Assembly: GCA_947570615.1 (NCBI GenBank) | Contig: CANOVJ010000039.1 | Location: 1-39,092, forward strand | Source of the DNA: an uncultured Lachnospiraceae bacterium | Lineage (GTDB): Bacteria > Bacillota > Clostridia > Lachnospirales > Lachnospiraceae | Length of the DNA: 39,092 bases | Reading direction: 5' to 3' | Part shown: positions 936 to 4,815 of the stretch, piece by piece | How the letters are laid out: each line of letters starts with the position of its first letter | Numbering within the stretch: position 1 is the first letter of the stretch | Program-made: the position numbers and the translations under genes | Notes under the pieces: model-generated | The model's input: the letters and a program-made list of their open reading frames with translations, nothing else | Told to the model about the DNA's origin: nothing | Database searches by the model: none

Positions 936-1445
936 ATGTGTGACAGGAACAGACTGGCAGTTATAGCGAGAGAGGAAGCCGAAAAGCCATATAACGGGAA
1001 ATGGAACAATTGTATGCCCAATATAGGGGATATTGTCGCCCTGTTTCCAAAATGGTCTGTGGAGGAGGCCGATGGGCTCTGGTGTGCGGCATTTGTATAT
1101 CATTGTGTGATATCAGCGGGATTCAGAATCCCTGTTCGTCCGAAAGAATCTTCCTGTTCTCTTGCAGGGTGCGGAGCATGGGAGGAATGGGCGCAGGCGG
1201 ATAGTCGCATTGCATATCACAGTGGAAATGATAATGCCTTTTATCCTGCGCCCGGGGATCTTGTTCTTTTTGACAGGGTATTCAACAACACGGATCATGA
1301 CCATATTGGAGTTGTACTTGAAAATTATGATGATTATATTATAACTGCAGAGGGAAATGTCGAAAATGTCTCTCGCATTGTAAAACGTACAAAGGACAGT
1401 CATATTCGTGCGTATATCCGTATCCCTGACAATTTTTTGTATTAA
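936..1445 (+). CDS. CHAP-like (cysteine/histidine amidohydrolase) domain protein
   Basis: About 169 residues. The ATG at 936 is preferred over an upstream in-frame ATG at 885 because GGGGAGG (924-930) sits 5 nt before it. The WCAAFV motif places a nucleophile-like Cys50, DHIGVV gives His123, and a third polar position follows in TAEGN (Glu139/Asn141); PGDLVLF just before the His is also typical of CHAP and NlpC/P60 folds. Such enzymes usually cleave peptidoglycan amide bonds, but no signal peptide or wall-binding domain is visible, so this one would stay in the cytoplasm or leave by another route such as lysis. Its place between NUDIX and GIY-YIG/DUF2075 genes suggests accessory cargo. Function is inferred from the fold only. 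Confidence 0.7.
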   Translation: MCDRNRLAVIAREEAEKPYNGKWNNCMPNIGDIVALFPKWSVEEADGLWCAAFVYHCVISAGFRIPVRPKESSCSLAGCGAWEEWAQADSRIAYHSGNDNAFYPAPGDLVLFDRVFNNTDHDHIGVVLENYDDYIITAEGNVENVSRIVKRTKDSHIRAYIRIPDNFLY

Positions 1446-1541
1446 GACGGCTCCCGTCCCCAGGAGAGGCAGAGCATTCAATCCGATTGAAGAGCCTCAC
1501 CTTCGGAGAGCTTTGGAGAAATGTACGCATGAGAAATGTCA

Positions 1542-1570
1542 TTGAACGGGCAGGTTGTTGATGTTACAAT
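1542..1570 (+). promoter_or_regulatory. sigma-A-type promoter of the GIY-YIG/DUF2075-MazG unit
   Basis: TTGAAC (1542-1547) and TACAAT (1565-1570) are separated by 17 nt, close to the housekeeping consensus. Transcription would start near 1577, about 33 nt before the ATG at 1610, giving the two downstream genes their own promoter. Confidence 0.6.
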
Positions 1571-1609
1571 TACTATATTATATTGAGTCTGATAATACGA
1601 GGTGAGAAG

Positions 1610-3364
1610 ATGGGACTTTCAGGCCCGGTCATTAGAAAAATAGAGGATAGCGAGAGCGCGTTGGATAATTTTCAATGGAACTCTCTTCCCAGGGAGAACG
1701 ATACGGTACGGGAGATTATATCTTCTTTTCCAACCGTATACATTCACAATTGGAAAAATACCAGTGATTATGAGGTATATATTGGGGAGACAAACAATAT
1801 TTTCGCGCGCACACGGCAGCACTACAATGAGGGGACGAGAACCGAACAGTCATGGCAGAGTGAACTTGCTGGCAGGTCGGCCAGTTTATATATCATCGGA
1901 CATGAGCATTTTAATAAATCAATGACGCTTGATATTGAAAACAGGCTGATGCACTACTTACTCAGTGCATCAGCCGTACGAAGGGTTCATAATCTGCGTG
2001 GAAATCCACAAAATAAATATTATCCGGCAGATGAACTGGATGCCATATTTTCGGGGATCTGGAGGGGCCTGAGAAGAGATAACAGGGAGCTTTTTCCTGA
2101 AGAAAGCGCCATAAGGGATTCGGCCATTTTTAAAGCATCGCCGTTACATAAGCTCACTGATGATCAGGTTGCTGCCAGGGATATGATTGTGGACAGAGTA
2201 AGGAGCGCGTTACAGAATGATCAAAAGGGCCAGATTATTTTTATAGAAGGAGAGGCAGGAACCGGAAAGACTGTTTTAAACAGCAGTACATTTTATGAGA
2301 TATTCTGTCAGGCGGAAGAGAATGGAAATGAAGGCATAAAATGCAGACTGATTGTAAACCACAAAGAACAGCTGACGGTATATGAACAGATTACCGCAAA
2401 ACTGGGATTGACGGATAAATATGGCGAAGTGGTCTACAGACCGACCAGATTCATTAATAAGCATTCGCCTGAGAAGCCGGTAGATGTTGCGTTCGTAGAT
2501 GAGGCTCATCTTTTGCTGACGCAGGGAAAGCAATCCTATACAGGAGATAATCAGCTTCAGGACATTTTGGATCGGGCCAGAGTGACAGTGGTGATGTTTG
2601 ATGAAAATCAGATTTTGACGACCGAGCAGTTCTGGGAAGCGGAATTACTTGAAAGATACAGAAGACAGGCCAGGGACGCGCAAAATTATCTGACGCTTAA
2701 GAATCAACTTAGAATGCGGGCGGATGAAAAGACGTTAGCATGGATCGATTCCTTCACAAAGGAGAGGATGATTCAAAAGATACCGGCTTCGTCTGCGAAT
2801 TATGAAATTCGTATTTTTGATTCGCCTGATGAGCTGGAGCAAATGATTCAGAGGAAAGCAGGCTCCAGGAAGACTTCTCTGTCAAGAATCGTTGCCACTT
2901 ATGATTGGGAGTATAATGCGAATTCAAAGCGGGCGGGACGAATGAAAAAATACTGGGAGGTTATGATTGGAAAATGGCATAAACCATGGAACAGGGAGCT
3001 GGAGCAGAATCTCAGTGCAGAGGAGAAGAAGAAAATCAGGAATCTGTCATGGGCGGAGCAGCCGCAGACAATAGACGAAGTCGGATCAACATTTGTGATA
3101 CAGGGATTTGATCTGAATTATGCAGGCGTCATACTTGGTCCTTCCGTAAAATATCGCGATGGCAAAATTGTTTTTGACTCAGAGGCAAGCTGTAATGCAA
3201 AGGCGGTCAGGAACAGGACGTTGTCCGATGGTACAAGGAAAAAATATGGAGAGATCCTGCTGCAACATGAGGTAAGGGTTCTCATGACACGGGGCGTAAA
3301 TGGATTATATATTTATGCATGTGATGAGGAACTTCGAAATGCATTACACCATGCAGAAAAATAA
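1610..3364 (+). CDS. GIY-YIG nuclease fused to DUF2075 P-loop ATPase/helicase-like protein
   Basis: 584 residues from the ATG at 1610, which has GAGGTG 5-6 nt upstream; a TTG at 1583 in the same frame lacks a ribosome site. Residues about 40-115 form a GIY-YIG nuclease domain: Tyr44 in TVYIH, Tyr57-Ile58-Gly59 in VYIGET, Arg67/Arg69, His71 and a likely catalytic Glu110 in DIENRL. From about residue 185 follows a DUF2075 superfamily-1-like ATPase with Walker A GEAGTGKT (214-221) and Walker B VDVAFVDEAH with DEAH at 297-300; later segments such as NQLRMR and the C-terminal VLMTRGVNGLYIY fit helicase motifs of this family. It probably uses ATP to act on nucleic acid and cut it. A MazG-like gene follows after 9 nt. 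The domain calls are strong; a defence role is inference. Confidence 0.88.
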   Translation: MGLSGPVIRKIEDSESALDNFQWNSLPRENDTVREIISSFPTVYIHNWKNTSDYEVYIGETNNIFARTRQHYNEGTRTEQSWQSELAGRSASLYIIGHEHFNKSMTLDIENRLMHYLLSASAVRRVHNLRGNPQNKYYPADELDAIFSGIWRGLRRDNRELFPEESAIRDSAIFKASPLHKLTDDQVAARDMIVDRVRSALQNDQKGQIIFIEGEAGTGKTVLNSSTFYEIFCQAEENGNEGIKCRLIVNHKEQLTVYEQITAKLGLTDKYGEVVYRPTRFINKHSPEKPVDVAFVDEAHLLLTQGKQSYTGDNQLQDILDRARVTVVMFDENQILTTEQFWEAELLERYRRQARDAQNYLTLKNQLRMRADEKTLAWIDSFTKERMIQKIPASSANYEIRIFDSPDELEQMIQRKAGSRKTSLSRIVATYDWEYNANSKRAGRMKKYWEVMIGKWHKPWNRELEQNLSAEEKKKIRNLSWAEQPQTIDEVGSTFVIQGFDLNYAGVILGPSVKYRDGKIVFDSEASCNAKAVRNRTLSDGTRKKYGEILLQHEVRVLMTRGVNGLYIYACDEELRNALHHAEK

Positions 3365-3373
3365 GGAGCATAT

Positions 3374-3694
3374 ATGAACCAGAAGACAATCGACAGAATC
3401 AGACGATTTACAGAGGAACGAGATTGGGATCAGTTTCATTCTCCCGCCAATCTGGCAAAGTCCATTATGATAGAGGCAGGGGAGCTGCTGGAATGTTTTC
3501 AGTGGGACGATGATGCCTACGATATGGATCATGTTAAGGAGGAGCTGGCGGATGTTCTGGTGTATTGCCAAAACATGCTGGACAGGCTGCAATTGGATGT
3601 CGATGAAATAGTGAACAGTAAAATGGACAAAAATGAGACGAAATATCCCATTGAAAAGGCCAGAGGAAAGGCCGTTAAATATAATGAGCTTTGA
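3374..3694 (+). CDS. MazG-like nucleotide pyrophosphohydrolase
   Basis: A 106-residue all-alpha NTP pyrophosphohydrolase of the MazG/iMazG/RS21-C6 type. The metal-binding residues are present: Glu34 and Glu37 in EAGELLECFQW, then Glu57 and Asp60 in EELADV. Such enzymes hydrolyse (d)NTPs to monophosphate plus pyrophosphate. The ribosome site AAGGAG overlaps the stop codon of the GIY-YIG/DUF2075 gene 9 nt upstream, so the two are very probably co-transcribed and translationally coupled. That implies a joint role, for example a nuclease/helicase paired with nucleotide depletion or sanitising, but this is not proven by sequence. Confidence 0.9.
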   Translation: MNQKTIDRIRRFTEERDWDQFHSPANLAKSIMIEAGELLECFQWDDDAYDMDHVKEELADVLVYCQNMLDRLQLDVDEIVNSKMDKNETKYPIEKARGKAVKYNEL

Positions 3695-3716
3695 GGATGC
3701 CAAATTTATTGAACAG

Positions 3717-3756
3717 GATCCGGTTCGTTGGCCGGCAGAATTTTCTGCACCGGATC
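3717..3756. repeat. nested inverted repeat downstream of the MazG-like gene
   Basis: GATCCGGT (3717-3724) and ACCGGATC (3749-3756) form a perfect outer 8-bp repeat; inside lies the palindrome GCAGAATTTTCTGC (3735-3748). No T-run follows, so it is not a standard terminator. It sits where the AT-rich block ends. Confidence 0.5.
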
Positions 3757-3903
3757 ATTCCGGTTCCCGGGGGTTTGTCTTACGGCCAATACGGGGAATG
3801 CACTTTTTTGCGTAGACTTTACTTATAGCTGTTCTTAACCTTGTACCTGTGTTTCGCCGTTGCTAAAATGAAAAAGGAAAACAGGGAAAGGCAGGACGGG
3901 AGT

Positions 3904-4815
3904 ATGAAAGAAATAACAACAAAACAGTTTCAGTTATTATCGGACAACCAGATCGTATGGGATTTACTGGTGAAAAGCTATGCGGAGAACGCAGTGGCGG
4001 CCCCCTTTTTCGAATACGCGCTCACATCCACCTGGCAGGATAAACGTTATCTTTATCTGAACAGACTCTGGTTTGACAGGGGAAGGGCAGTGGGATTTGT
4101 GTTTTATGAGAATCCCTGTACCGATATTTACTTTTGCCTGCGCCATGGGTATGAGGAGCTGGCGGATGAGCTGACGGAATATGCTGAAAGGCATATGCCG
4201 GGAAAGAGGGAAGAAAAGACATTTATTTTTCATCCGGAACAGGCAGTCCTGATGGAGTCCGCCGGGAAAAGAGGATACGGACAGGCTTTTGTCAATGAAG
4301 ATTATGTTATTGATTTTGGGACAGCCGCATTAAATTATCCCTTGCCGGAGGGGTTTCATTTTGTAAAGCCCGGCCATGTGGATCCGGTGAAGCTTGCACG
4401 CTGTACATGGAAGGGATTCGACCATGAGGACAAGGGGCCCTTTGAGAACTGGGAGGCGGAGGATCCCGGAACCCCCTGGAACCCTCAAAAAGCATATCAG
4501 GGCGTTATCAGCGACATTATGGCGCCGCCGCCTCATTCTACCTGTGAGTACGGGGTGATCATTGCAAACGAGAAGGAGGAATATGTCTGTTTTTCGGGAA
4601 TGTGGTGGGTGCAGGAGAACAGGCTTGCCTATATGGAGCCGCTCTGTACGATTCCGGAATATCGTCATAATGGCCTGGCCGCCGCCGCGCTCTCCGCGCA
4701 TTATCACAGAATGAAGGAGCTGGGAGCCGATCATATGACCGGAGGAGGAAATGATTTTTACCGCAGGATTGGATACAATCGCAGGACGCGGTCATATGGC
4801 TGGAAAAAATCATGA
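3904..4815 (+). CDS. GNAT-family N-acetyltransferase
   Basis: About 303 residues from the ATG at 3904, with AGGCAGG 8 nt upstream; earlier in-frame starts (TTG 3841, ATG 3868) lack ribosome sites. The C-terminal third carries a GNAT core: MEPLCTIPEYRHNGLAAAAL holds the acetyl-CoA pyrophosphate-binding R-x-x-G-L-A loop, followed by a helix and the FYRRIGY strand typical of the fold's end. The N-terminal half is probably a degenerate second GNAT domain, as in two-domain family members. The acceptor substrate is unknown. It is the first gene after the composition change and stands apart from neighbours by about 170-210 nt each side. Confidence 0.8.
   Translation: MKEITTKQFQLLSDNQIVWDLLVKSYAENAVAAPFFEYALTSTWQDKRYLYLNRLWFDRGRAVGFVFYENPCTDIYFCLRHGYEELADELTEYAERHMPGKREEKTFIFHPEQAVLMESAGKRGYGQAFVNEDYVIDFGTAALNYPLPEGFHFVKPGHVDPVKLARCTWKGFDHEDKGPFENWEAEDPGTPWNPQKAYQGVISDIMAPPPHSTCEYGVIIANEKEEYVCFSGMWWVQENRLAYMEPLCTIPEYRHNGLAAAALSAHYHRMKELGADHMTGGGNDFYRRIGYNRRTRSYGWKKS

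Follow-up and report, generated by a model that had tools for sequence, protein, structure and literature searches.

A GIY-YIG-type nuclease-helicase and an adjacent MazG-like pyrophosphohydrolase form a candidate accessory module in Lachnospiraceae

In the single-gene immunity systems Nhi (PMC12904381) and AbiO a nuclease is fused to a helicase, and in Gabija a nuclease, GajA, is combined with a superfamily 1 (SF1) helicase, GajB. GajA is reported to be regulated by nucleotide levels, being inhibited by nucleoside triphosphates (NTP) and deoxynucleoside triphosphates (dNTP) (PMC8136825). The helicase family PF09848 is counted among the abortive infection (Abi) Pfam families (PMC10121019). MazG is listed as a predicted, untested defence domain by DefensePredictor (PMC13092281), which cites Burroughs 2015 for such domains, and the enzyme type of dCTP pyrophosphatase 1 (DCTPP1) is described as maintaining dNTP pools in human cells (PMC7162842). 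Here we analyse a two-gene unit that brings a PF09848 helicase and a MazG-like enzyme together. It lies in a 39,092-nucleotide stretch of DNA (the window) from an uncultured Lachnospiraceae bacterium, beginning at base 1 of contig C39 (CANOVJ010000039.1) of a 4.05-Mb assembly in 112 contigs (GCA_947570615.1). On the plus strand, 1610..3364 encodes P0001, probably a GIY-YIG-type nuclease fused to a helicase, and 3374..3694 encodes P0002, a MazG-like nucleotide pyrophosphohydrolase. An original prediction, made from the letters of the window alone, had proposed the two as a defence pair.

Two predicted enzymes encoded side by side

The 584-residue P0001 contains an SF1 helicase domain of Schlafen (SLFN) group 3, also known as DUF2075, at residues 208-572 (2231..3325; PF09848, E 2.5e-90, 303.7 bits against a cut-off of 24). 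Its Walker A motif spans G214 to T221 (GEAGTGKT) and its DEAH motif D297 to H300. In an alignment of 71 homologues, P0001 itself included, G214, G217, G219, K220, T221, D297, and E298 all had a conservation of 1.00. The AlphaFold2 model of full-length P0001 had a mean pLDDT (predicted local distance difference test) of 89.2, and a Foldseek search with it retrieved the RecD, DSH9, SLFN11, and UPF1 helicases with E values from 2e-9 and low TM-scores of 0.3-0.4. By its Pfam domain name and its SLFN11 match, the helicase of P0001 resembles that of the human Schlafen proteins.

The N-terminal domain, with a core at residues ∼44-119 (1739..1966), is probably a GIY-YIG-type nuclease. It contains Y44, Y57-I58-G59, R67, and E110, which we take to be the Y...YIG, R, and E catalytic set of this fold, together with H71. 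Conservation in the same alignment was 0.99 for Y44, 1.00 for Y57, 0.99 for G59, 1.00 for R67, 0.99 for H71, and 1.00 for E110. All the nuclease, Walker A, and DEAH residues named in the original prediction are present in P0001, and the catalytic ones are 99-100% conserved. The predicted order of secondary structure elements (β42-50, β53-61, α64-77, α82-88, β91-97, α103-119) agrees with what we take to be the GIY-YIG order. The GIY-YIG profile PF01541 scored 11.6 bits on P0001, under its cut-off of 22.6, and a relative that aligns to P0001 residues 41-578 (L008) passes that cut-off with 29.6 bits (E 9e-7). The model of the isolated domain (mean pLDDT 87.9) gave no Foldseek match in the PDB at E ≤ 0.001, so the assignment as a nuclease rests on the residues, the strand and helix order, and the relative.

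P0002, of 106 residues, matched PF12643, the MazG-like family of all-alpha NTP pyrophosphatases, with an E value of 4.8e-17 (62.4 bits against a cut-off of 27), and its best PDB match was RS21-C6, or DCTPP1 (E 2.7e-20). Across 62 homologues E34 and E37 (E34xxE37), E57 and D60 (E57xxD60), and K83 do not vary. W18, W44, and Y64, whose counterparts presumably have roles in DCTPP1, are retained in 61, 59, and 59 of these. P0002 thus looks like a nucleotide pyrophosphohydrolase of putative dCTPase type with an intact active site.

The arrangement of the two genes was borne out as first described. The ATG of P0002 at 3374 begins 9 nucleotides past the P0001 stop codon, which ends at 3364, and a ribosome-binding site (AAGGAG, 3363..3368, plus strand) lies across that stop codon, making translational coupling of P0001 and P0002 likely.

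Association, partner exchange, and distribution

Relatives of P0001, the closest of which come mostly from Lachnospiraceae genomes, were collected from a species-level genome collection by a scan seeded with six P0001 peptides, a procedure that favours close relatives. The 63 loci were reduced to 62 by removing an identical duplicate (L078); near-identical pairs remain. MazG lies within 150 bp and on the same strand at 48 of the 62 loci, downstream of the helicase at 36 and upstream at 12, and the gap is at most 24 bp or the genes overlap in 34 of the 36 downstream cases. When helicases were clustered at 85% identity, MazG was nearby in 34 of 45 groups.

A less biased census of the host family used PF09848 itself as the query and was confined to proteins of at least 480 residues that were found by a local helicase model at 1e-15 and could be classed by local models; it includes one protein from outside the family (L014). 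The helicases fell into two nuclease classes, with MazG adjacent at 28 of 32 GIY-YIG-type and 19 of 30 PD-(D/E)XK-type proteins. When only loci flanked on each side by 500 bp or more were counted, the figures were 25 of 29 and 17 of 26, respectively. Sixteen PF09848 places were examined separately, among them ten divergent proteins of 667-740 residues that score weakly with the local helicase model: eight of 674-740 residues omitted from the census (L208, L213, L215, L217, L218, L220, L221, and L205:4395-6536), plus L209 (671 residues) and L211 (667 residues). No MazG was found in the fetched stretches around these ten. L209 and L211 are counted among the 30 PD-(D/E)XK-type proteins, for which the figure becomes 19 of 28 when they are set aside. 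The divergent proteins serve as an internal negative control and perhaps belong to a different system. MazG stands alongside two of the three PF09848 fragments among the sixteen places (L210, L212, and L219).

At the level of whole genomes, helicase and MazG co-occur in 60 of 397 family genomes against 14.3 expected (p = 3e-42). No MazG match was found in 80 control regions of 20 kb (1.6 Mb), which were placed by hand in genomes carrying PF09848 or a relative of P0001. A phylum-wide sample of 20 loci, classed by eye, had MazG at all four other GIY-type loci, at five of nine PD-(D/E)XK-type loci, and at none of the six remaining loci, which were fragments or of neither class. Among stretches from plasmid or phage collections, MazG was adjacent in 5 of 16, from L. 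plantarum, L. salivarius, Priestia, the archaeon Halalkalicoccus (L121, gap 5 bp), and an unverified phage scaffold. The scaffold, from human faeces, carries a MazG and GIY-YIG helicase pair (L335:2421-4665). In a Hymenobacter plasmid stretch (L122:7209-9110) the PD-(D/E)XK part and the helicase are separate open reading frames, and DruA is also found there. The adjacency of helicase and MazG is real and class-specific, and its conservation across diverse genomes gives strong backing to the pairing proposed at the outset.

The two partners are not strictly matched. Over 47 pairs the helicase and MazG distances were uncorrelated (r = 0.04; 353 of 2000 permutations as high), and strict co-evolution was rejected across classes. 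In 23 of the 47 pairs the nearest MazG relative stands beside a helicase of the other nuclease class; in these, the MazGs are 67-90% identical and the helicases 7-31%, and poor alignment may account for the lowest values. In one example, MazGs that are 90% identical accompany helicases that are 29% identical. At two loci (L072 and L074) a PD-(D/E)XK helicase, MazG, and a GIY-YIG helicase stand in a row. That similar MazGs lie beside dissimilar helicases of different nuclease classes suggests that the two proteins are coupled through a diffusible nucleotide pool and not as a fitted complex, although an exchangeable protein contact could also be read from the swapping. The suggestion that MazG is interchangeable across helicases with different nucleases is new here.

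MazG itself, searched at E ≤ 1e-15, occurs in 81 of 397 family genomes. Because it is present in so few and co-occurs with the helicase, a housekeeping gene that merely happens to lie beside the helicase was rejected as the main explanation. Away from the helicase, some MazG copies stand beside genes for HsdR-like, NERD, or reverse transcriptase-like proteins. MazG of the same family adjoins HsdR-like proteins with no SLFN helicase alongside in L306:3154-6620 and L295:3995-7863, and in L291:3677-7703 two MazG-like genes lie beside a 1081-residue protein with reverse transcriptase and HD-CE domains. In L301:3482-4313 MazG overlaps a 169-residue piece that, judged by eye, resembles the beginning of a helicase of the PD-(D/E)XK type; this is perhaps a decayed pair.

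The two-gene unit is accessory and mobile-looking. PF09848 has a patchy distribution, being found in 19 of 398 phylum genomes and 70 of 397 host-family genomes, and relatives of P0001 occur in 39 of 72,556 plasmid records (12 covering at least 80% of the protein) and 3 of 50,697 phage records. The position of the pair differs between two same-genus genomes compared. No conserved integration site was seen: in G026 and G008, the two genomes of the same genus that carry a close relative of the pair, it does not adjoin the counterpart of the GNAT gene of the window.

Named neighbours of the relatives include type III-A Cas6 and Cas10, HsdM and HsdS, a restriction endonuclease, DruA, an HNH protein, and a DNA adenine methylase. 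Two neighbours recur, a NUDIX enzyme and a PLD-DEAD helicase, and the two fuller copies of the latter that were scanned also contain DUF3427. The PLD query matches 8 of 61 loci and 1 of the 80 control regions. Four-gene cassettes of PLD-DEAD helicase, NUDIX, GIY-YIG helicase, and MazG were seen in L059:4422-10125, L076:6565-12089, L088:1-4702, and L115:4339-9734, with a different gene order in L115. In each cassette, both nuclease-helicases have a nucleotide hydrolase of their own. Among 148 neighbouring proteins from a pool of 444, the 25 commonest of 191 Pfam families are mainly ordinary, and a dense defence island at every locus was rejected on these grounds.

In the window itself, the contig edge leaves the C-terminal portion of a YhcG/PDC-S02 nuclease at 1-279. 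Between it and the pair lie a NUDIX hydrolase (323-763), whose nearest curated model is YtkD-like with a score under its cut-off, and a CHAP-domain protein (885-1445), for which 1 of the 36 other genomes of the genus holds a relative (E ≤ 1e-20). To the right are ordinary metabolic and transport genes, as judged by eye from open reading frames of at least 280 residues. A stem-loop of 13 pairs followed by a T-rich stretch is found on the minus strand at 1944-1975, within the nuclease coding region. The pair had been credited with its own promoter at 1542..1570 (plus strand). The match exists (TTGAAC-17-TACAAT, with TG preceding the second hexamer), but the region 1440-4000 holds 8 such promoter-like sites against 4.8 ± 2.3 in shuffled sequence, which is not above chance.

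Possible roles of the pair

The explanation we favour, tentatively and at a little less than an even chance, is that the two genes form an accessory module directed against mobile DNA, be it phage or plasmid, and acting through the shared nucleotide pool. P0001 would use its SF1 helicase to bind foreign or replicating DNA and move along it, and would cut that DNA with its GIY-YIG domain. P0002 would pyrophosphohydrolyse dNTPs in the same cell, most likely dCTP or modified dCTP. The lowered pool could then starve phage replication, activate a nuclease that nucleotides hold in check, in the way reported for GajA (PMC8136825), or both. This proposal builds on the domains and their intact catalytic motifs, the conserved adjacency, the co-occurrence, the partner swapping, and the accessory distribution. 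A defence role is suggested because the distribution is patchy, relatives lie on plasmids, and restriction and CRISPR genes are in modest excess nearby. The defence pair of the original prediction is accordingly supported in part: it keeps its adjacency, its accessory distribution (70/397), its plasmid carriage, and a modest enrichment, while the match to a promoter of its own is not above chance.

Several observations weigh against a defence module of this kind. The signal from neighbouring genes is a modest one. A set of 16 seeds from E. coli K-12, covering restriction, Vsr/Dcm, and CRISPR, matched at 15 of 61 loci (16 of 62 before the duplicate L078 was dropped), and in six of the 15 the sole match was a PLD-DEAD helicase that the HsdR seed had picked up. 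The strict restriction and CRISPR count was 9/61 loci against 2/80 control regions (one-sided p = 0.0085), but the comparison with the first 40 controls was not significant (9/61 against 2/40, p = 0.11), and the second 40, with 0 matches, were added after that result had been seen. The proposed enrichment near defence genes is thus upheld in the larger comparison and not in the smaller. A PADLOC scan gave 171 models matched by neighbours (148 proteins from a pool of 444) against 6 by controls (149 from a pool of 305), a tally of models and not proteins in which many models match the same protein; the seed test was relied on for this reason. The swapping of partners is itself accompanied by a weak distance correlation inside each class (r = 0.26 and 0.28; 2 and 6 of 2000 permutations). 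The specificity of P0002 for dCTP is not assured: His38 of DCTPP1, which we take to be a base contact, aligns with Ile9 of P0002, and the position is Ile, Val, or Leu across the 62 MazG homologues.

Other observations on the same side bear on whether the two proteins work together at all. MazG is not adjacent at 14 of the 62 loci, including 7 of 10 from Lactobacillaceae, so the nuclease-helicase may work alone. Among the 14, however, one is a fragment (L094), one has no more than ∼230 bp of sequence past the helicase gene (L091), and one is frame-broken with MazG 19 bp ahead of its first piece (L077). Conversely, PF09848 is not the neighbour at 35 of the 85 places where MazG occurs in the family, a few of these being at contig ends; of 32 such places retrieved, 25 were inspected, and some of them are ordinary gene contexts. 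On this evidence P0001 could be a single-protein defence in the manner of Nhi and AbiO, to whose profiles its helicase part has weak matches (E 1.8e-11 and 4.5e-10, respectively), with MazG as a passenger that cleans damaged or modified nucleotides set free by the nuclease or guards the host from mutagenesis. The swapping of MazG between helicases could also mean such a generic nucleotide-cleaning passenger, and an analogous NUDIX enzyme accompanies the PLD helicase. We nevertheless consider a passenger somewhat unlikely, since the association spans two nuclease classes and is absent at the ten divergent PF09848 proteins, a degree of selection that is high if MazG is only a passenger.

The tight arrangement, in which the genes commonly overlap or are separated by a few bases, and the carriage on plasmids would also suit an addiction or abortive-infection unit, in which MazG is an antitoxin-like safety partner destroying the nucleotide that activates a toxic nuclease-helicase. 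This is the least probable of the explanations considered, because the gene order is variable (36 downstream, 12 upstream) and several full-frame nuclease-helicases stand without MazG. A module for DNA repair or replication-fork maintenance would fit the RecD- and UPF1-like helicase fold and the upkeep of human dNTP pools by a DCTPP1-type enzyme (PMC7162842). It is improbable in view of the patchy presence, the plasmids, the modest excess of restriction and CRISPR genes nearby, and the different places of the pair in the two genomes compared.

Returning to a module that acts through the nucleotide pool, a broader claim, which we regard as unlikely as it stands, is that an interchangeable dCTPase-like pyrophosphatase is a common control element or co-effector of several unrelated nuclease-helicases, depleting a dNTP or a modified dNTP and so both blocking replication and releasing nucleotide-inhibited cleavage. 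It would span the GIY-YIG and PD-(D/E)XK proteins with MazG, and the PLD helicase that stands with a NUDIX enzyme in the same cassettes. If true, nuclease-helicases with a nucleotide pyrophosphatase would make up a general class of two-part immunity in which a metabolite, and no protein interface, links the parts. The operon itself poses the question of whether the nuclease is controlled by the very nucleotide that the adjacent enzyme breaks down.

Comparison with known systems

Assignment of P0001 to a named system in PADLOC was rejected, as all matches were weak and partial. The Nhi and AbiO matches cover only ∼183-375 of the 470-residue profile (P0001 residues 182-420) and include no nuclease part; P0001 differs in its GIY-YIG-type N-terminal nuclease and its MazG partner. 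The PADLOC candidate PDC-S14 has a weak match to P0001 (E 1.8e-4) and to GIY-type relatives that is confined to the GIY-YIG region and leaves the helicase part uncovered. Five PD-(D/E)XK-type relatives were scanned, and all of them match parts of the 657-position profile of a second candidate, PDC-S41 (E 1e-14 to 1e-21); some GIY-type relatives match its C-terminal part, and P0001 has no match to it at E ≤ 0.1. To our knowledge PDC-S41 is a candidate without a tested function.

Gabija shares with the present pair the combination of a nuclease and an SF1 helicase, but no profile of GajA, an OLD nuclease, or of GajB is among the P0001 matches (E ≤ 0.1). Here, moreover, a single polypeptide combines the nuclease with the helicase, and the pair includes a pyrophosphatase. 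P0002 keeps the catalytic Glu and Asp residues and the two Trp residues of the mammalian dCTP pyrophosphatase DCTPP1/RS21-C6, but it is encoded by a bacterial accessory gene and has Ile at the His38 position.

A search of titles and the beginnings of abstracts, with preprints and most subscription journals outside its scope, found no paper on this pair, in agreement with the view in the original prediction that no named system has this make-up. The main text of the DefensePredictor paper (PMC13092281), figures such as its Fig. 6F apart, names neither GIY-YIG nor Schlafen. PF09848 already counts as an Abi family, and a defence role has already been predicted for the MazG domain; the locus described here merges the two into one testable operon, with an association that is class-specific and controlled.

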